A stretch of DNA of 27,460 nucleotides from a virus. The DNA is taken from positions 1 through 27,460 of IMG/VR virus record IMGVR_UViG_3300029908_001993; one strand, given 5' to 3'. Position numbers and translations under genes: made by a program. The notes beneath the pieces are model-generated. The model was not told the DNA's origin, did no database searches, and saw nothing but the letters and a program-made list of their open reading frames with translations. Shown here piece by piece: positions 1 through 6,934 of this stretch; the first letter of the stretch is position 1; each line of letters opens with the position of its first letter.

Positions 1-249
1 ATGAAATTTTTATCTAGACTCTTTAGAAGCAAAGAATACAATAAGAAAAATACAAGAGCGGATAGTGTTAAGAATAATTCTAACACTACAAATTATGTGA
101 ATTTAAATAATTTTTCAAGTGCAACTAACTATTTAATTTGGGTAGATCTTAAAAAATTCAAAGTAAATATTTTTGATGGAAGCACAAATAAATGGAATTT
201 AGTTCATAGTTATTTATGTACCATAGGAAATGCTTGTCCTACAGAATGA
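1..249 (+). pseudogene. L,D-transpeptidase (YkuD-type) N-terminal fragment, cut by prophage insertion
   Basis: The visible 82 codons carry the start of a YkuD domain: residues 43-81 read as YLIWVDLKKFKVNIF and then CTIGNACPTE, the usual first strands of L,D-transpeptidases, which crosslink peptidoglycan outside the membrane. Family members normally go on for another 80 or more residues to a catalytic His/Cys motif; here homology stops after CPT and a stop codon follows at 247-249. The break lies 33 bases from the integrase gene, so I infer the phage integrated inside this host gene. The window starts exactly at an ATG, so an upstream start cannot be excluded. The rest of the gene should lie beyond the right prophage end. 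Confidence 0.75.
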
Positions 250-281
250 CAAAAAAGTGGAATATGATGGAATGAAGGAAC
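235..281. other. Probable attL (left prophage attachment site)
   Basis: Host homology (transpeptidase codons for CPT) ends at about base 243, and the serine integrase gene ends at 282 on the other strand. Large serine recombinases normally lie next to their att site, so the crossover should fall between these points. The short stretch also holds TGGAATATGATGGAAT (258-273), a motif that recurs at 2199-2235 and 3571-3579. The exact core dinucleotide cannot be set without attR or an empty site. Confidence 0.55.
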
Positions 282-1907
282 TTATTTTTTTTTAAGTTCC
301 TCATTTATGTCTCCGATGCCTATCAATTCTATTTTTGCATCATATGTATCACCATTCCAAATAATTCTTTGAACTAAAGATTGGATAAGAAATCTTCTTT
401 GAAGGATATTATTGGTCATTTCAATATTTCTATTAAAATACTCCAGAGAATCTATTACTACTTTTATATTTTGTATTCCATTATCAATACTCTTTTCAGT
501 GCTTTCTACATTATTATAAGAAGACTGTAATATTTTAATTTCATCTTTTAAATTTTTCAAGTCTTCCATAAACATATCAGCAATTTCATCATCATTAGTT
601 TTAGCTATTCTTTTTCTGAGATTATCCATTTCAATGTTTTTTTCTTTTATTTCATTTGCAAGTTTTTCTTTTTGCGTATTTTCATAATTTCCAGCAATCT
701 CTTTTGGAGAGATAGTTTTTTTTAAGGCATCAGTTAATATTTCTTTATTATACCATTTGATTTGATCTACAATAATTTTATCTAGCCTATCTACACGAAT
801 ATTTTTAGATATACACTTATCAGTATACTTATTCACTTTATTAGAACATATATAATAATAATGTTTATTATTAGTTTGTCTTACTAACATATTAGCACCA
901 CACACAGAACATTTTAAAAGTCCAGATAAAATAGCATTATTACTTTCGCCAGTTCCAACTCTAATAAATTGTTTAGTTTTATTCTTTTCTACTAGTTCTT
1001 GTACTTTCAACCAATCTTCACTTTTTATTATTCCTTTATGTTTTGCAATTGCTGCAACCCATTCAGTTACGTCTCTATCTGTTTTTGCCTGCTTGGTTTT
1101 ATTATATGTCAAATAACCATTTCCATTAGCGGTGCCAAATACATTAATGCCTTTTTCTTTTAAATATTCATGTGTTTTTAAACTACTTTCTACATATATG
1201 GGATTTCTTAAAATTCTAGCAATTTGAGATGAACTTGCAACACCATCATTTTTACCCTTTATTCCGCTATAAGATAATTTTTTGACTACTACCCTTATTG
1301 ATTGCTCCTCAAGATAAGTTTTATAAATGAGATTAACTATTTCTAGTTCTGCCTCATTAGGTGTCAATTTCATAAGAGTTCTTTCCTTAAAGTCTTCATC
1401 AATGTAAGTTATTTTTTCTGAATTAAATCCGGTTGGTATTTGTCCTCCAAGCCATCTACCAGTTTTGGCAAGTTGAAGCATATTATCTCTTACACGTTCT
1501 GCAATAGTTTCCCTTTCTAATTGTGCAAAAACAGAACTTATATAAACCATGGCTCTTCCCATTGGCGTACTAGTATCAAACTTTTCATTGATACTTACAA
1601 AGTCAATATTGTTACTTTGCAAGGTATCTAATGTAGTAGAGAAATCAGCTACATTTCTAGATATACGGTCTAATCTGTAGCATATTAAAGTGCTGAATTT
1701 CTTAGCTGCTGCATTTTTTAAAAGTTGCTGGAATTGCGGTCTATTAGTATTACCCCCACTAAAGCCTTCATCCTCATATACTGTATATTCAATTTTTTCA
1801 TCTATATAATTTCTACTACAGTATTCTTTGCACAATTCTATTTGATTTTCTATAGAGTCACCCTTACCAGTAAATATTGATTTCCTGCTATATATAGCTA
1901 CTTTCAT
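282..1907 (-). CDS. int: Large serine recombinase (phage integrase)
   Basis: 541-residue site-specific recombinase that would integrate and excise the prophage through a Ser-DNA intermediate. The N-terminal resolvase domain begins AIYSRKS with the likely nucleophile Ser10, and it contains the CYRLDRISRN and QLERETIAERV segments typical of the family. A recombinase domain follows (about 155-265), then a zinc beta-ribbon with CSVCG near residue 332 and two further Cys (YICSNK, DKCISK), then a long coiled coil (about 395-470) of the kind that controls directionality. Length and order are normal for large serine integrases. Its ATG shares one base with the stop of the upstream XRE gene (TAATG), so the two are probably cotranscribed. 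It sits at the prophage end beside the broken host gene. Confidence 0.95.
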   Translation of the reverse strand: MKVAIYSRKSIFTGKGDSIENQIELCKEYCSRNYIDEKIEYTVYEDEGFSGGNTNRPQFQQLLKNAAAKKFSTLICYRLDRISRNVADFSTTLDTLQSNNIDFVSINEKFDTSTPMGRAMVYISSVFAQLERETIAERVRDNMLQLAKTGRWLGGQIPTGFNSEKITYIDEDFKERTLMKLTPNEAELEIVNLIYKTYLEEQSIRVVVKKLSYSGIKGKNDGVASSSQIARILRNPIYVESSLKTHEYLKEKGINVFGTANGNGYLTYNKTKQAKTDRDVTEWVAAIAKHKGIIKSEDWLKVQELVEKNKTKQFIRVGTGESNNAILSGLLKCSVCGANMLVRQTNNKHYYYICSNKVNKYTDKCISKNIRVDRLDKIIVDQIKWYNKEILTDALKKTISPKEIAGNYENTQKEKLANEIKEKNIEMDNLRKRIAKTNDDEIADMFMEDLKNLKDEIKILQSSYNNVESTEKSIDNGIQNIKVVIDSLEYFNRNIEMTNNILQRRFLIQSLVQRIIWNGDTYDAKIELIGIGDINEELKKK

Positions 1908-2155
1908 TATAAATTCAACTCACATTCATTTTTATTTCTATCTTTAGATTCTATCATACAAAATAATAGTAGACGAGGGCAAATTTCAAGCGCATCAGCA
2001 AATCTATAGAGCATACGAACAGTAGGAGATTCAATACCATTTTCTACTTTAGATATATATCCTTGAGTAAGTCCTAATTTTATTGCCAGATCTTTTTGTG
2101 ATATTTTTTTGATTTCTCTATAGTATTTTAAATTTATTTTTGGATTCTTTATCAT
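1907..2155 (-). CDS. Small XRE-family regulator upstream of integrase
   Basis: 82-residue protein made of one helix-turn-helix: ISQKDLAIKLGLTQGYISKVENG is a clear XRE HTH, with a short Cys-containing tail. The start is set at 2155 because AAGGAG lies 7 bases upstream; a longer reading from 2182 has no ribosome site. It overlaps the integrase start by one base, suggesting an operon in which it controls integrase expression or lysogeny. Upstream, the 9-mer TGGAATATA occurs twice (2199-2207 and 2227-2235) and may be its operator. The target is inferred, not shown. Confidence 0.85.
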   Translation of the reverse strand: MIKNPKINLKYYREIKKISQKDLAIKLGLTQGYISKVENGIESPTVRMLYRFADALEICPRLLLFCMIESKDRNKNECELNL

Positions 2156-2198
2156 TTGTTCGCTCCTTGAAGAAGCTACCAATTAAAATATACACCAT

Positions 2199-2235
2199 TG
2201 GAATATATCTTTTAACAGTGTTTTGATGGAATATA
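2199..2235. promoter_or_regulatory. Direct repeats upstream of the integrase-operon regulator
   Basis: Two exact copies of TGGAATATA at 2199-2207 and 2227-2235, 28 bases apart, lie just upstream of the small XRE gene. They are candidate operator half-sites. The related GATGGAAT also occurs at 266-273 and 3571-3578. Confidence 0.4.
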
Positions 2236-2249
2236 AACCATATGTAGGT

Positions 2250-2279
2250 AAAATAAAAAGACACTTATATAAAGTGTCT
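2250..2279 (-). terminator. Intrinsic terminator after the coiled-coil gene
   Basis: AGACACTT (2259-2266) pairs perfectly with AAGTGTCT (2272-2279) across a 5-base loop. On the minus strand the stem is followed by TTTTTATTTT, which fits termination of the gene at 2298-2567. Confidence 0.8.
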
Positions 2280-2297
2280 CAAAGAGAATTATTTAAA

Positions 2298-2567
2298 TTA
2301 ATGTTGTTCATCAGAATCAAATTTATTGAAGTTTTGAAGAAAATTATATGCTTTCTCACCTTTTACAGTAGCTAATTTAATGGATTTAACATCTCCAGAT
2401 ACTTGAGCTAATTGGTAAGTAAAATTATCTTGTTCAGCTTTTACGACATCAACTTTATGTTCTAGCGCCTTAAGGACTTGAGTATTTTCTTTAATTTGAG
2501 ATTGCATTAAGTCTATGCTGTTTTGCATTTGTTCTAACATTTTTAATATTTTATCTTCATTATTCAT
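2298..2567 (-). CDS. Small coiled-coil protein, function unknown
   Basis: 89 residues, almost entirely heptad-like helix (MLEQMQNSIDLMQSQI, VLKALEHKVDVVKAEQ), with no Cys, signal or membrane segment. The start at 2567 is chosen because AAAGGAG lies 8 bases upstream. It stands alone between its own terminator and the hicAB terminator. Proteins of this type are frequent in Clostridium and its prophages but have no established role; an oligomerising partner or regulator is possible. Confidence 0.65.
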   Translation of the reverse strand: MNNEDKILKMLEQMQNSIDLMQSQIKENTQVLKALEHKVDVVKAEQDNFTYQLAQVSGDVKSIKLATVKGEKAYNFLQNFNKFDSDEQH

Positions 2568-2674
2568 CTTAACAGCTCCTTTAGGTAATCGTATTAACAT
2601 TATACATTAATTAAGTTGAATTATAAAGAAAGAATAATTGTTAGATTATTTAAATGCATTTAAAAATAATAAAT

Positions 2675-2707
2675 AAAAAAGGTGTTCGCCATAAACACCC
2701 TTTTTTT
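2675..2707. terminator. Terminator downstream of hicB (possibly bidirectional)
   Basis: GGTGTT (2681-2686) pairs with AACACC (2694-2699), flanked by A6 on the left and T7 on the right, so it could terminate from either side. It follows the hicB stop. Confidence 0.8.
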
Positions 2708-2711
2708 ATAT

Positions 2712-3125
2712 TTAGTTATGATTCTTTAATCCAAGTTGTTCTTTAAGTGCACTTTGTAAAACTTGAGAAAAGTTGATTTTATTTTGTTCAGCTATTTTGT
2801 TAAGCCATTGAGGAATAGTTAAAGTTTTCTTTATAGATTGATTTTCTATTGCTGTTCTATATAATGGCATATGAACTTCTATAAGCAGTGGTATTTGATT
2901 TTTTAACAAGTTGATATTATTAATAGGAGTATCCTTTGGAATTTTGTCATTATCTTCTTCCATGCCATATAGGTGAAGAGCTAAAGCTTCTTTTGCCATC
3001 CTTATTGCTTCATCAGTAGTATCTGCACATGATAAACATCCTGGTAAATCAGGGAATTCTATTGATATTCCATCTTCCTCATAAGTAAAAATAGCTGGAA
3101 ATACATAAGTATCCTTTTCTTTCAT
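2712..3125 (-). CDS. hicB: HicB-like antitoxin
   Basis: 137 residues. The N-terminal half is the HicB fold (FTYEEDGISIEFPDLPGCLS, then TTDEAIRMAKEALALHLYGM), the partial RNase-H-like domain that covers HicA. The C-terminal TLTIPQWLNKIAEQNKINF region looks like a ribbon-helix-helix DNA-binding domain, so it should both neutralise HicA and repress the operon. It is the second gene after hicA, with AAAGGAG before the start. The HicB/HicA pair is a type II toxin-antitoxin system that may stabilise the prophage or act against other phages. Confidence 0.9.
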   Translation of the reverse strand: MKEKDTYVFPAIFTYEEDGISIEFPDLPGCLSCADTTDEAIRMAKEALALHLYGMEEDNDKIPKDTPINNINLLKNQIPLLIEVHMPLYRTAIENQSIKKTLTIPQWLNKIAEQNKINFSQVLQSALKEQLGLKNHN

Positions 3126-3164
3126 AGTACTACTTACTCCTTTATAAAAAGTGTTAAGGAGGGA

Positions 3165-3188
3165 AGGGATTAATTTAAAATAATCCCT
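3165..3188 (-). other. Inverted repeat at the hicA-hicB boundary
   Basis: AGGGATTA (3165-3172) pairs perfectly with TAATCCCT (3181-3188) over an 8-base loop, spanning the hicA stop codon ahead of the hicB ribosome site. In the hicAB message it may act as a weak attenuator or a stability element that sets the toxin/antitoxin ratio; this is inference. Confidence 0.4.
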
Positions 3189-3367
3189 GCTTGTTTAAAA
3201 ATACTTTTAACAGTTTTGATTGGTAAATCCTTATTAGGGTGTGGTATTGTAACTTTTTCCTTTTTAATAGGATGTTTGTATTGATGATGGTCACCAATAC
3301 AAGCTACTTCATACCAACCATCAGCATTGAGTATTTTTATAATTTCCCTTGAAGAATAGGCCTTCAT
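3170..3367 (-). CDS. hicA: HicA-like mRNA interferase toxin
   Basis: 65 residues of the double-stranded RNA-binding-like HicA fold: YSSREIIKILNADGWYEV, then GDHHQYKHP with the catalytic His, then KVTIPHPNKDLPIKTVKSIFKQAG. The family cleaves mRNA and is blocked by HicB. The start is placed at 3367 because AGGAGGG sits 6 bases upstream; a TTG two codons earlier is less likely. It precedes hicB in one operon with a strong promoter (3390-3418). Confidence 0.92.
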   Translation of the reverse strand: MKAYSSREIIKILNADGWYEVACIGDHHQYKHPIKKEKVTIPHPNKDLPIKTVKSIFKQAGIILN

Positions 3368-3389
3368 TAGCAACCCTCCTTACAAAATA

Positions 3390-3418
3390 ATTATAACACG
3401 TATTTTAACACGTGTAAA
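3390..3418 (-). promoter_or_regulatory. hicAB promoter with operator repeats in the spacer
   Basis: On the minus strand TTTACA (3418-3413) is followed after exactly 17 bases by TATAAT (3395-3390), a near-consensus sigma-A promoter. The region contains two copies of ACGTGTTA 12 bases apart, plus the palindrome ACACGTGT (3408-3415) overlapping the -35. These are good candidates for the HicB operator. Confidence 0.8.
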
Positions 3419-3562
3419 TAGTTGTATTGATTTTTTTACAAAATAATGACAATTATAAAAGGATTAATTAATTAGTTGAATTATTCTTGATTTTATATAA
3501 ATGTGAATTAATTAGTAATAATTCGTCGATAAATAAAAACAAAACTTGTCCATATGTCGAAA

Positions 3563-3601
3563 TATTCCCGGATGGAATACCCCTTTTGGGTTTATAATAG
3601 T
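3563..3601 (+). promoter_or_regulatory. Palindrome and isolated -10 element upstream of the interrupted ORF
   Basis: TATTCC (3563-3568) and GGAATA (3574-3579) form an inverted repeat with a 5-base spacer, just upstream of GGTTTATAATAGT (3589-3601). This carries a perfect TATAAT but has no recognisable -35, so an activator binding the palindrome is possible. The same 13-mer recurs at 20226-20238. The rest of 3430-3660 is AT-rich with no gene that I can support. Confidence 0.4.
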
Positions 3602-3661
3602 TGCATGAAAAGAAACAATGCATAAGTATAGTAAATTATATGAAGTTTTCATAGCTATAAT

Positions 3662-3704
3662 AAGAACATATGTTCTTGCATTGGTATAGAAAAAGTTGTA
3701 AAAT
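3662..3704 (+). promoter_or_regulatory. LexA-type SOS box overlapping a promoter
   Basis: AAGAACATATGTTCTT (3662-3677) is a perfect 16-base palindrome with the core GAAC-N4-GTTC, matching the Gram-positive LexA/DinR box. A -35 TTGCAT (3676-3681) overlaps its right end, and TAAAAT (3699-3704) follows after 17 bases. This would place the small ORF starting at 3735 under DNA-damage control. LexA binding is inferred from the motif. Confidence 0.65.
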
Positions 3705-3734
3705 TATACTATAAGTATTAAGGGGTTGGAGCTT

Positions 3735-4028
3735 GTGAAAAATGAAAATAAAACTTTTAAAGAAATGTTATTGGATGAATTAAGGCACAATCAAAAAAAT
3801 AACAAGTCCATTTGCCAGCCTATTTTCCATCATGCTGCGTCGGCAAATTGACCTAATAGGCGCGCTATGAGGGCAATTCGTCTCCTTGCCTGATGAAAAA
3901 TATTCATGGCAACTTTGGACTTGTTATTTATTTTCATGTGCCTAAAAAACAAAGATATAACTATTAGAGAATTAGATATACAACAAATAGTTTCAACAAT
4001 GATAAAAGAGATAGATGTTAAATCCTAA
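3735..4028 (+). pseudogene. 43-codon SOS-controlled ORF split by a MITE-like insertion
   Basis: A GTG start at 3735 (AAGGGG upstream) opens a frame reading VKNENKTFKEMLLDEL, which then runs into an inserted element and stops at TGA 3849-3851. After the element, and after removal of one TAA target duplicate, the frame resumes as KNKDITIRELDIQQIVSTMI and ends at TAA 4026-4028. The deduced original product is 43 residues, highly charged and helical, of unknown family. It lies behind a LexA-type box and converges on the phage repressor gene, the position expected of an SOS-induced antirepressor or similar small inducer. That role is inference. In the present state only a 38-residue product with an unrelated tail could be made. 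Confidence 0.6.
3784..3942. mobile_element. 159-bp MITE-like element with 27-bp terminal inverted repeats
   Basis: The ends GGCACA...AACAAGTCCA (3784-3810) and its complement (3916-3942) match at 23 of 27 positions. The element is flanked by TAA on both sides (3781-3783 and 3943-3945), a 3-bp target duplication. The interior is less AT-rich than its surroundings and folds on itself: TTTGCC/GGCAAA, GCCTATT/AATAGGC and TTGCCA/TGGCAA pairs. It has no room for a transposase, so it must move, or have moved, with one supplied elsewhere. It interrupts the 43-codon ORF in frame. Confidence 0.8.
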
Positions 4029-4039
4029 GCATCTATCTC

Positions 4040-4414
4040 TTAATCATTTTTTAAAGCAATTGTGACAGCTATTATTTTCTTTATTAATTGTGCTTTTTCT
4101 TCTTTCGGCAATGAATCTAAGTTTATATTCTTATCTTTATATCCGTTAATCAGTTGATTAACAAATAATTCATTTGTATTAATTGCTGAATGAGTCTCTA
4201 CTTTTTTGTTAGAATCTTCATCATTAAGAAGATAATCTGTAGTGACATTTAAAATTTTAGCTAATCTAGATATTATTTCACCCTTTGGTTCTCTCTTACC
4301 GTTTTCATATCTAGAGAGAGCAGCTTCTGTAATACAAGCTAATTCTGCGAGTTCTTTTTGTTTTAGATTTCTTTCTTCTCTTAATATTAGTAATTTCTCA
4401 CCAATAGTTTTCAT
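4040..4414 (-). CDS. cI-like phage repressor (XRE family, no peptidase domain)
   Basis: 124 residues. The N-terminal XRE domain (about 5-65) has the HTH QKELAELACITEAALSRYENG and the usual TTDYLL end. The C-terminal half is a short helical region, probably for oligomerisation. It lacks the LexA/CI S24 self-cleavage domain, so RecA-stimulated autoproteolysis is not available and induction would need another route, such as an antirepressor. AAGGTA lies 5 bases before the ATG. It is divergent from the Cro-like gene across an operator region, the classic immunity layout. Confidence 0.85.
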   Translation of the reverse strand: MKTIGEKLLILREERNLKQKELAELACITEAALSRYENGKREPKGEIISRLAKILNVTTDYLLNDEDSNKKVETHSAINTNELFVNQLINGYKDKNINLDSLPKEEKAQLIKKIIAVTIALKND

Positions 4415-4433
4415 GCTATTACCTTCATTACTT

Positions 4434-4548
4434 ACTTACCATTATTATAAATCAAATATTATAAAGTTAAAAAAACTTACCAAAGTTATAAAAAAACTAT
4501 CGACACTTACCGAGTGGTAAGTTATTAGTAAATTACCGAATGGCAAGT
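4434..4548. promoter_or_regulatory. Immunity operator region with divergent promoters
   Basis: ACTTACC-GAGT-GGTAAGT (4505-4522) is a perfect palindrome. 4531-4548 is a second copy with 15 of 18 matches, and half-sites ACTTACC occur at 4434-4440 and 4475-4481. Rightward promoter: TCGACA (4500-4505), a 17-base spacer filled by the first operator, then TATTAG (4523-4528). Leftward: TATAAT on the minus strand in the 4445-4455 area upstream of the repressor. Repressor and Cro-like protein are expected to compete for these sites. Confidence 0.8.
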
Positions 4549-4794
4549 GAGGTGATTACAACGAAAGCTAATTTACTTAAAAGTAAGCGTGTCTTAAAAG
4601 GATTAACACAAAAAAAAGTCGCTGAAATGGTAGGTGTATCAGAAAAAACTTATAACCATAAAGAAACTGGTAAGATTGAGTGTAAAATAGATGAAATACT
4701 AATTATAAGTTCGGTTCTTGATCTTACAATGGAAGATATAAATGAAATTTTTTTTGATGGTAACTTACCATTTGTACAAGTGAAAACTGGATAA
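4540..4794 (+). CDS. Cro-like XRE regulator
   Basis: 84 residues. The HTH is LTQKKVAEMVGVSEKTYNHKETG, followed by VLDLTMEDINEIFF, typical of small Cro-like phage regulators that open the lytic path. The start is unusual. The in-frame ATG at 4540 lies inside the second operator and within a few bases of the expected transcript start, with no ribosome site. A good site (GAGGTGAT, 4549-4556) is followed at 4561 by ACG AAA GCT where an ATG would be expected. Either a nearly leaderless ATG or a rare ACG start must be used; the second would remove seven residues. Confidence 0.82.
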   Translation: MASEVITTKANLLKSKRVLKGLTQKKVAEMVGVSEKTYNHKETGKIECKIDEILIISSVLDLTMEDINEIFFDGNLPFVQVKTG

Positions 4795-4854
4795 TATATT
4801 AATTCAAGTTTGTCCAGTAACTAAAATTTAAAACTATGAAAGGAGAGGAAATGA

Positions 4855-5250
4855 ATGAAGAAATTAGATGAATTAAAAAAATATAAAAAAACAGATTTGA
4901 AATTGTTTAGAGATCAACTAGAAAAAGAAAAGGAACATCTAAAGGAACTATACCAATTTAGTAATGGGGTTGAACACTCTGGAACTATGGATTGTAAAAA
5001 AGAAATAAAAAGGCTAGAAACTATAGTTGAGTATTTAGAAACTGCTCAAGAAGTACCAGTTCAAGAGCAGTATATAAAAGAACTAATAAAAATTGAATTA
5101 AAACCATTCAAAAAATTTCAAATTTCAATTAATGTACTTTTATTAATCTTAATAATAATATTATCAGCTTTACTAATAAAACGAGAAATTATTTTAAATA
5201 ATCTTCAAACTCAATTAGATACACTTAAACAATTACTTTTCAGATTCTAA
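4855..5250 (+). CDS. Coiled-coil protein with C-terminal membrane anchor, unknown
   Basis: 131 residues: charged helical N-terminal half (LKKYKKTDLKLFRDQLEKEK, ETIVEYLETAQ), one membrane segment (about 90-110, ISINVLLLILIIILSALLI), then a short helix. AAAGGAGAGG precedes the ATG. Its last 18 bases overlap the end of the convergent gene at 5233-5880, which has a similar plan of coiled coil, C-terminal membrane segment and short helix. I do not recognise the family. Roles such as superinfection exclusion are possible but unproven. Confidence 0.65.
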   Translation: MKKLDELKKYKKTDLKLFRDQLEKEKEHLKELYQFSNGVEHSGTMDCKKEIKRLETIVEYLETAQEVPVQEQYIKELIKIELKPFKKFQISINVLLLILIIILSALLIKREIILNNLQTQLDTLKQLLFRF

Positions 5251-5880
5251 TTGTATTACTTGTTCTAAGTGCAAATTAATTTCTTTTAGGAGCTTAAGGT
5301 ATTCCACATCATTAGTCGGTTTTAAGTAATTTAAAATTGCGAAAATTATACAAATAATTGCAGAGATTGTACAAATCCACTTATGAAAATCAAACGTAGT
5401 ATCGTTGTTCAAGAATGAATCTTTTAGATTGTCTACATTTTCATTACAAATTGCCAAATTTAAAGTTTCTTGTGGAGAATCATCAATTTTTGTATCTTCA
5501 GATGAATCAATTTCTTTTTGAATTTCAGTAGATAATGAATCAAGTATGTTATTAAGAGAACGTGAAGTTAAAAAATCAGGATTTATTGTTTCAAAATAAT
5601 CAAGTTTTTCAGCTATCAAATTATAATTTTTGCAAACATCAATAAGCATAGGATCTTTAATAATAGAATCAGCAAATGAATTTATAATCTTTTGAGTTTT
5701 TGCTGCTGATTCCAATATTGGATTAAGGATTTCTTCGGTTCTTAATATTGCTTTAGTAAATGTGTCTAGCACAACTTGATTTTGCAGGATTCGTTCAACT
5801 TGCTTTTGGGTTTCTAAAAATGGTTTGAGAGTTTCGTATAATTGATTACTTTGTTGAAGCATTCGATTTAAATTATCCAT
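5233..5880 (-). CDS. Helical membrane-anchored protein, convergent accessory gene
   Basis: 215 residues, with long amphipathic helices in the first two thirds (NRMLQQSNQLYETLKPFLET, KTQKIINSFADSIIKDP), an acidic linker, one membrane segment near 168-187 (WICTISAIICIIFAILNYL) and a short helical tail. AAAGGGGGT lies 7 bases before the ATG. It is the only minus-strand gene within the rightward early region, which marks it as an independently transcribed accessory (moron-like) gene that might be expressed from the lysogen. Family not recognised; exclusion or defence is a guess from position only. Confidence 0.65.
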   Translation of the reverse strand: MDNLNRMLQQSNQLYETLKPFLETQKQVERILQNQVVLDTFTKAILRTEEILNPILESAAKTQKIINSFADSIIKDPMLIDVCKNYNLIAEKLDYFETINPDFLTSRSLNNILDSLSTEIQKEIDSSEDTKIDDSPQETLNLAICNENVDNLKDSFLNNDTTFDFHKWICTISAIICIIFAILNYLKPTNDVEYLKLLKEINLHLEQVIQLESEK

Positions 5881-6009
5881 AAATTACACCCCCTTTCAAC
5901 AATATTTTACCATATGTTGAGAGAAAAAGAAAAAGGAGGTAGATAGAATCAAGTAACCAATTAACAACAAATGAATAAAATAATATGAATTTCTTACGAG
6001 GTGATTGAT

Positions 6010-6168
6010 ATGGGAAGAACTGAAAGACCAATAACTGTAACTATAGTAGGAAAAATAACAGAGGCACATCAAAGAGCATGCGCAGAAAGATTAGCAATGA
6101 TATGCGAAATGCAATATGGAATAGAAGGGTGTAAGCAAATCTTGGCAGGTTTAGAGAAGAAAAATTAA
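6010..6168 (+). CDS. Small conserved-type phage protein, unknown
   Basis: 52 residues starting MGRTERPITVTIVGKI, preceded by GAGGTGAT at good spacing. It contains two Cys in CAERLAMICEMQYG and one in GCKQILAG. It has no membrane segment. It is the first of a run of short rightward genes. No function recognised; a small DNA- or protein-binding helper is possible. Confidence 0.65.
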   Translation: MGRTERPITVTIVGKITEAHQRACAERLAMICEMQYGIEGCKQILAGLEKKN

Positions 6169-6200
6169 ATACTTATGATAGCAGGGCAGAAATGCCTTTT

Positions 6201-6216
6201 ATAAAAAGCTTTTTAT
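6201..6216. repeat. 16-base perfect palindrome between small early genes
   Basis: ATAAAAAGCTTTTTAT is fully symmetric. It follows a small GGCA-GAAA-TGCC hairpin (about 6186-6196) with TTTT after it, so the two may form a weak terminator or processing site between 6168 and 6290. Confidence 0.35.
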
Positions 6217-6289
6217 CAGCAAAAGTAAATACTTCCTCAATTTATTATATTCAGAAAATTCAATATTAGTACTAAGGGGGATAGAAAAA

Positions 6290-6499
6290 ATGCAAGTATT
6301 TATGATTAATTTTAAGGCAAATCAAACTAAAGATAAAATTATGAATAAATTAGATGCAGCTATTAAAGAAACTAAAGCAGAAATGGAAACAAGTATAGCA
6401 AATAACGAAAATCCTACTTTAGATAAAACAGTTAGATTAAGCCAAAAACTTGATCCATTAATAGCACATAAAGAAAGAATGTTGCTTTATGGTTGCTAG
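6290..6499 (+). CDS. Spo0E-like small protein (possible aspartyl-phosphate phosphatase)
   Basis: 69 residues, two predicted helices. The second ends in VRLSQKLDPLIAHKERML, matching the SQxLDxLI signature of Spo0E-family phosphatases, which remove phosphate from Spo0A and hold back sporulation. The family is normally 50-85 residues long, as here. The start has AAGGGGG upstream; a second in-frame Met lies at residue 5. The next gene overlaps its end by 11 bases, and an AbrB-like regulator follows, which fits a role in the host sporulation/transition-state switch. The call rests on the short signature and size; catalytic activity is inferred. Confidence 0.6.
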   Translation: MQVFMINFKANQTKDKIMNKLDAAIKETKAEMETSIANNENPTLDKTVRLSQKLDPLIAHKERMLLYGC

Positions 6500-6635
6500 A
6501 TGTAAATGTGGGTTGAATTGGAACATTAGTATTAAAACAGATTTAAGCAAACCTTATGTATGCCCACATTGTGAATCAAAAGCGAGGGGCATTCAATACA
6601 AGCCAACTAAACTTGAAAGGGGAATGAGGATATGA
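6489..6635 (+). CDS. Small zinc-ribbon protein, 48 residues
   Basis: Begins MVARCKCGLNW and has a second pair in YVCPHCESKARG, giving CxC and CxxC knuckles about 20 residues apart, enough for one zinc site. It overlaps the Spo0E-like gene by 11 bases, and its TGA overlaps the ATG of the AbrB-like gene (ATGA, 6632-6635), so all three are translationally coupled. Its own ribosome site is poor, which fits coupling. Function unknown; nucleic-acid binding is plausible. Confidence 0.65.
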   Translation: MVARCKCGLNWNISIKTDLSKPYVCPHCESKARGIQYKPTKLERGMRI

Positions 6636-6934
6636 AAGCAACAGGAGTAACAAGACCAATTGATCCATTAGGAAGAGTAGTAATACCAAAAGAATTAAGA
6701 AAGCAACTTAACTGGAATGAGGAAGATAGAGTTGAATTTTTCATAGAGAATGATTCAGTAATCATTAGGAAATATGCTCCAGTAATCATTAGAGAATATG
6801 CTCCAGGATGTCATTGTTGTGGAGAAGTAAAAGGCTTAACTAAAGTTTTAGATTTTAATATATGTCCTAAGTGTTTGAAGGAATTTAAGAAGGCATCAGA
6901 GTTAATAAATGGATCAAGAAAGGTTGGGGATTGA
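6632..6934 (+). CDS. AbrB-family transition-state regulator with C-terminal zinc ribbon
   Basis: 100 residues. Residues 1-45 (MKATGVTRPIDPLGRVVIPK, ELRKQLNW) are a clear AbrB/SpoVT swapped-hairpin DNA-binding domain. The C-terminal half differs from host AbrB: it has CHCCGEV and CPKCLKEF, a probable zinc site. A 24-base tandem duplication (6758-6781, 6782-6805) repeats VIIRKYAP as VIIREYAP between the domains. Overlap with the preceding gene (ATGA) and the Spo0E-like gene two upstream suggest a unit that alters host stationary-phase or sporulation control, or phage early transcription. Confidence 0.88.
   Translation: MKATGVTRPIDPLGRVVIPKELRKQLNWNEEDRVEFFIENDSVIIRKYAPVIIREYAPGCHCCGEVKGLTKVLDFNICPKCLKEFKKASELINGSRKVGD

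Follow-up and report, generated by a model that had tools for sequence, protein, structure and literature searches.

A candidate LexA-controlled antirepressor gene interrupted by a miniature mobile element in a phage of a Clostridium-like host, with positional look-alikes in other phages

The virus record IMGVR_UViG_3300029908_001993 of IMG/VR (27,460 bp, analysed over its whole length and referred to here as the window) contains a small open reading frame (ORF) that lies behind a LexA-type box, converges on a phage repressor gene and is split by a 159-bp mobile element. We consider it probable, at roughly 60%, that this is a LexA-controlled mini-antirepressor module at a repressor devoid of a peptidase domain, and that it has been inactivated by an element resembling a miniature inverted-repeat transposable element (MITE). 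Cleavage of LexA after DNA damage would switch on the small gene behind its operator; the short product, acting as an antirepressor, would bind the repressor, most likely via the variable C-terminal part of the latter, and the operators would be freed. With the element lying after codon 16, translation would break off there; this copy of the SOS trigger has thus probably lost its function, and DNA damage probably induces the prophage less readily. The box, the two halves of the ORF, the element with its target-site duplication and the terminator are all present in the window, and the layout recurs in other phages.

The interrupted gene and the element within it

The features of the region are as follows (coordinates of the window; strand; description; basis).

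3664-3675; no strand; LexA-type operator GAACATATGTTC, the core of a 16-bp perfect palindrome at 3662-3677; pattern scan, clostridial form according to PMC4234289
3676-3704; plus; candidate promoter TTGCAT-17-TAAAAT, abutting the box; read from the sequence, scan not above chance
3681-3710; plus; alternative promoter TTGGTA-18-TATACT; best pair of the scan there, 5 bp past the box
3735-3783; plus; upstream portion of the small ORF, from the GTG start through 16 full codons to the element; ORF list and frame reading
3735-3851; plus; reading frame in its present truncated state, 38 codons, TGA within the element; ORF list
3781-3783; no strand; TAA target-site duplication, left copy; alignment columns
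3784-3942; no strand; 159-bp palindromic miniature inverted-repeat element with ends GGCACA/TGTGCC; fold, alignment and genome searches
3943-3945; no strand; TAA target-site duplication, right copy; alignment columns
3948-4028; plus; downstream portion of the small ORF, with 26 codons and the stop; ORF 3906-4028, in frame with 3735
4006-4041; no strand; bidirectional intrinsic terminator common to the small ORF and the repressor gene; hairpin scan
4040-4414; minus; repressor of 124 aa, XRE/HTH_3, without an S24 peptidase domain; ORF list, Pfam and PHROGs
4540-4794; plus; Cro-like HTH protein, divergent from the repressor; ORF list and family scan

Both halves of the small ORF lie in one frame, with 17 codons up to the junction and 26 from there to the stop at 4026-4028, as expected for the 43-codon ORF, split in frame and with a stop inside the insertion, that an earlier note on this DNA had proposed. 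The stretch to be removed had been placed exactly, at 3784-3945; the frame is kept because the element and one TAA copy together make 162 bp, and the element contains three stops in this frame. The GTG at 3735 is preceded by a Shine-Dalgarno sequence (AAGGGG) and lies 59 bp downstream of the box. Translational restart is unlikely, because the in-frame ATG at 3906 lies in the hairpin of the element and, by eye, has no good Shine-Dalgarno sequence.

The repressor matched only HTH families in Pfam and PHROGs, and no peptidase family, in agreement with its description as a protein of 124 residues without an S24 domain. No match to a metalloprotease of the ImmA/IrrE type was found among the ten neighbouring frames scanned. 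The gene does converge with the small ORF: both end at the hairpin at 4006-4041, which has 14 pairs and T tails in both directions.

The perfect GAAC-N4-GTTC palindrome reported earlier at this place is real, and is the sole exact GAACN4GTTC of the window; 0.12 such sites are expected from shuffled sequences, 11 of 100 of which reached one. The looser form GAACN4GTTY occurs at two further sites, 7837 and 9922. In the part of PMC4234289 available, LexA operators of Clostridioides difficile are given as GAACN4GTTT/C at lexA, recA and uvrB, and we infer that LexA may bind at 3664-3675. The statement that the box overlaps the -35 region was only roughly right, given that one candidate promoter abuts the box and the best-scored pair lies 5 bp beyond it; promoter-like sites in the region were not above chance in the scan (7 found, 6.1 expected).

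The insertion is, as had been claimed, a true mobile element, with a clean target duplication and a family in clostridial genomes. It is 73% self-complementary, and its folding energy is -62.6 kcal/mol, compared with -33.5 for shuffled sequences (z -8.7). Equal TWA triplets flank 26 of 28 aligned copies, that of the window included, whereas shifted controls gave 1, 0 and 0 of 28. Relatives were found in 58 of 206 Clostridiaceae genomes, and its end pattern (28 bases, up to 3 mismatches) was counted 66, 130, 138, 199, 1 and 34 times in six chosen clostridial genomes, with 0 for the reversed control. Among viral contigs, a 20-base probe found the element in a single contig, near-identical to positions 1-6638 of the window. 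With many copies in host genomes and one viral contig, the insertion is best described as a MITE-like element of host genomes that has entered a phage. The element shares with bacterial MITEs its short length, non-coding sequence, inverted repeats, target duplication and high copy number, and like them it is a short inverted repeat devoid of a transposase gene. The TWA duplication seems similar to those of IS5/PIF-Harbinger types. Double substitutions that preserve base pairing were seen at 15 of the 40 predicted pairs in the 28 aligned copies, and single copies alter both arms together, the terminal six bases included, so the hairpin seems to be maintained or corrected copy by copy. An Rfam match to MIR821 was far below the gathering score and was dismissed as a hairpin match.

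The window contains the immunity region of a temperate phage with a Clostridium-like host. It encodes a serine integrase, HicAB, the repressor/Cro pair, AntA/ORF6C and Bro-N proteins, RusA and terminase genes. The HicA/HicB toxin-antitoxin pair (2712-3373) lies just upstream of the broken ORF, and the AntA/ORF6C and Bro-N proteins are two larger, antirepressor-like proteins. A second contig, IMGVR_UViG_3300031261_000998 (loci L003, L005 and L025, near-identical to window 1-6638 and not counted as independent), is 99.96% identical to the window over 1-6638, broken ORF included, and beyond this point jumps to diverged matches of the 20.6-24 kb part of the window, on the terminase side. It may come from a phage whose backbone is different or has suffered a deletion, or the assembly may be chimeric.

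The same layout beside other repressors

The layout was sought in 51 loci, chosen by repressor similarity and blind to the box, as a LexA box followed by an ORF of 45-90 codons and a convergent repressor gene. The spacing limits were set after two of the loci, L220 and L308, had been seen, and are therefore not blind. Two loci had been set aside beforehand (L020, with no in-frame stop, and L314, short downstream), two of the 51 are near-copies of others (L028 of L027, L033 of L031), and L225, a decayed remnant, was not counted; L095 and L026 are the same record as L004, and L302 the same as L127. The layout was present in three of the 51 loci (L004, L220 and L308), and in 0 of 51 with each of 12 scrambled boxes, 11 of them distinct. 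L004 has the box GAACATATGTTT (6572-6583, complement), the sole GAACN4GTTY of its 18.7-kb record, followed by a 48-codon ORF and a convergent repressor gene. In Clostridioides phage phiCD418 (L308), GAACGTATGTTT precedes a 45-codon ORF with a TTG start, a terminator and the facing repressor; the stretch is identical in phiC2, and no gene is annotated at this ORF in either phage. The place in phiC2 is NC_009231, about 37,180-37,440 (2870-3130 of L308), where the small ORF faces phiC2p50, a homologue of phiCD119 RepR with 35% identity (PMC4009436, available part). In Parageobacillus phage JGon-2020a (L220), GAACAAATGTTT precedes a 90-codon ORF that ends 4 nt from the end of the repressor gene. 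The repressors of L220 and L308 are of about 130 aa.

Two further cases were found by box patterns, outside the box-blind census. In L127, one of 80 viral loci with box, leader and start (out of at least 120 stretches), an ORF of 36 codons converges on the gene of a 140-aa HTH repressor. In L239, one of 17 box-leader places in 194 Clostridiaceae genomes, an ORF of 54 codons overlaps the gene of a 137-aa repressor by 4 nt. The repressors of L004, L127 and L239 have an HTH and no peptidase in Pfam, and their small ORFs have no Pfam match. Boxes fused to a promoter in 21 viral stretches gave no further case, and nine other places similar to the L239 repressor were without the layout. In Brevibacillus phage Abouo (L309), a perfect GAACTTTAGTTC lies at about 3722, close to where gp48 begins, and the operon there faces the repressor-like gp50; this is possibly a variant of the layout.

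In all six loci, the window included, the small ORF and the repressor gene meet at one bidirectional terminator hairpin, and each small ORF has a Shine-Dalgarno sequence and ends in or at this terminator. These features bear on an alternative in which the LexA-controlled promoter acts through antisense RNA, or through collision with the repressor transcript, the small ORF being incidental. The orientation is indeed convergent in all six loci, the small proteins have no common sequence, and lambda OOP RNA provides a precedent for a LexA-controlled antisense RNA. However, in every locus the two genes are separated by a terminator that is strong in the direction of the small ORF, so the transcript of the small ORF should stop at the last codons of the repressor gene. 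The Shine-Dalgarno sequence before each ORF also counts against this alternative, and it is not evident that the element would do away with such an RNA. We find this explanation quite unlikely.

The repressors of the window and L004 are 84% identical over residues 1-67 and different beyond, and their small ORFs differ too. L224 retains just the C-terminal part of an L004-like repressor, next to an L004-like small ORF, and both appear to be decaying. L006, L007, L027 and L028 have the same HTH, a third C-terminus and no box there. This joint change, seen in two types only, fits an interaction between the small protein and the repressor C-terminus.

The LexA-type box is also found before many other genes. 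Patterns of GAACATATGTTY with a leader were found 17 times in Clostridiaceae, against 1 for the reversed control; 22 times against 7 in a second sample, where eight matches come from a single coding motif that recurs across eight genomes, not from operators, and two are the same place; and 24 times against 1 in an overlapping order-level sample. The genes behind it are of many kinds; judging by their sequences, they include those of LexA, UvrB, a polymerase resembling DinB and a YneA-like LysM protein. Boxes were also seen directly upstream of a Peptidase_M78 (ImmA/IrrE-like) gene in L268 (12453 onwards), possibly an SOS-driven protease antirepressor; between a Peptidase_M78 gene and a divergent gene in L241; directly upstream of tyrosine recombinase genes in L240 and L299 and of a serine recombinase gene in L266 (families assigned by reading); and, mostly paired, ahead of a conserved gene with about 80 codons in eight clostridial genomes (L226-L232, L301).

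The small gene could do another SOS job, such as blocking cell division or modulating RecA or LexA, with induction proceeding by another route. The variety of clostridial genes behind the box and the lack of a Pfam match for the small proteins examined are in favour of this. Against it, the cases found blind to the box are always beside a repressor, although the census looked only there, and the small ORF changes jointly with the repressor C-terminus between the window and L004. We regard such a function as unlikely.

Weighing the antirepressor reading

Several results weigh against a mini-antirepressor module inactivated by the element. No intact homologue of the small protein of the window was found in 50,697 phage records, and a search of 206 Clostridiaceae genomes at the DNA level, with few candidates scored in each, returned the element itself, stretches of repressor/HTH sequence and short matches attributable to chance, and nothing else; the earlier note had named the lack of an intact homologue in relatives as grounds for rejecting its proposal. 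The small proteins of the different loci are no more alike than shuffles (p 0.08-0.95) and are analogues by position, and no convincing relative of the repressor C-terminus of the window was found in 200 genomes. The layout is missing from 48 of the 51 loci with similar repressors, some of which have an annotated metalloprotease beside the repressor instead (L216, L218). Only one of the 46 genomic box-leader loci faces an XRE gene, a number attainable by chance, so the layout is uncommon among host SOS genes. In phiC2, single boxes are not rare, as GAACN4GTTY occurs at three sites (6045, 36681 and 37204, the last at the small ORF) against two for the reversed control, and the phage also has a distant gene annotated as a metallo-protease. 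Open flanks by themselves carry little weight: at one of 18 other copies of the element they are open at least as far as here (27 codons), and at two more over 19-20 codons. The identical broken allele is also present in a second backbone (contig L003).

Other searches gave little. For the L004 and L239 small proteins and, in viral contigs, the L127 repressor, they returned the source record only or nothing. Pieces of the small ORF of the window that line up by eye with L239 and L127 were dropped for want of shuffle support. A 90% match of window 3740-3953 in one genome (G068, locus L037), first considered as an intact 5' relative, proved to match in the element alone, its flank being the end of an unrelated gene.

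Alternatively, the box and the ORF may be products of chance or relics, the element having simply landed between genes, with HicAB on one side and the repressor on the other. In favour of this, the copies of the element elsewhere are mostly intergenic and one of the 18 has flanks as open as here, a perfect box arises in 11 of 100 shuffles of the window, and the missing homologue points the same way. On the other side are a perfect box, a Shine-Dalgarno sequence and a start at a spacing resembling those of L004 and L239, a frame that ends in the common terminator, and a layout that recurs in relatives; chance is, in our view, quite unlikely. For the proposal of a LexA-controlled antirepressor gene broken by a mobile element, the insertion, the form of the box, the peptidase-less repressor and the recurrence of the layout with intact ORFs have held, and the homologue by sequence has not been found. 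The predicted loss of SOS induction, which the earlier note framed as a prophage that may be locked, may be incomplete, because of the two larger antirepressor-like proteins of the window, of the possible supply of an antirepressor in trans by co-resident phages and of the presence of the allele in a second backbone.

Relation to known systems and significance

The nearest parallel in principle is provided by the Gifsy prophages of Salmonella, to which the earlier note had correctly referred. In the available part of PMC3121763, their uncleaved repressors are inactivated by small LexA-controlled antirepressors (GfoA, GfhA and GftA), which couples induction to the SOS response, and co-resident phages can supply the antirepressor in trans. 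The window shares with them a repressor that is not of the self-cleaving kind and, if the proposal holds, would also share a small LexA-controlled protein and induction coupled to SOS. It differs in that its gene faces the repressor and shares a terminator with it, has a Gram-positive box and host, and is broken. Genes of the Gifsy type lie outside the immunity region, whereas that of the window converges directly on the repressor gene, and the module is therefore not classed as a Gifsy antirepressor; the likeness considered here is one of principle. Tum of phage 186 and AntC of N15 are likewise products of LexA-regulated antirepressor genes, but come from enterobacterial phages, and Tum has 146 aa and is partly DinI-like (PMC3121763, PMC10432266, available parts). 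The smORF modules of linear plasmid-like phages also inactivate a repressor through a small protein without proteolysis, but, as far as the available part of PMC10432266 goes, they are switched by a phage transcription factor and are SOS-independent.

No account of a small antirepressor under LexA control and encoded opposite the repressor gene of a clostridial phage was found in the open-licence literature, and the available parts of PMC10432266, PMC11172241 and PMC4009436 describe no such arrangement.

A repressor unable to cut itself can also be served by a metalloprotease partner, as in the ImmA/IrrE antirepressors of the ICEBs1 type. There the protease gene lies beside the repressor gene, as annotated in L216 and L218, whereas none was found among the ten frames scanned around the repressor of the window.

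Judged from their sequences, intact positional look-alikes of the broken gene stand beside repressors in Gram-positive phages and appear to have been overlooked so far. We suggest tentatively, at slightly worse than even odds, that they belong to an unrecognized, rapidly changing class of mini-antirepressors under LexA control, about 36-90 residues long, whose genes lie opposite the repressor gene, share its terminator and are exchanged together with the C-terminal domain of the repressor; the class would include the phiC2 gene, and the window would be a natural MITE knock-out of one member. In its mode of action, the arrangement would resemble the systems of Gram-negative phages in which LexA controls an antirepressor. 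Repressors incapable of self-cleavage are present in many Firmicutes phages, whose means of sensing DNA damage often lacks an explanation; if the proposal is true, a recurring small gene, mostly unannotated and preceded by a LexA box, would provide one. The cultured phages JGon-2020a and phiC2 carry the layout, so the proposal is directly testable, and the window would add a natural loss-of-trigger allele that bears on the domestication of prophages.
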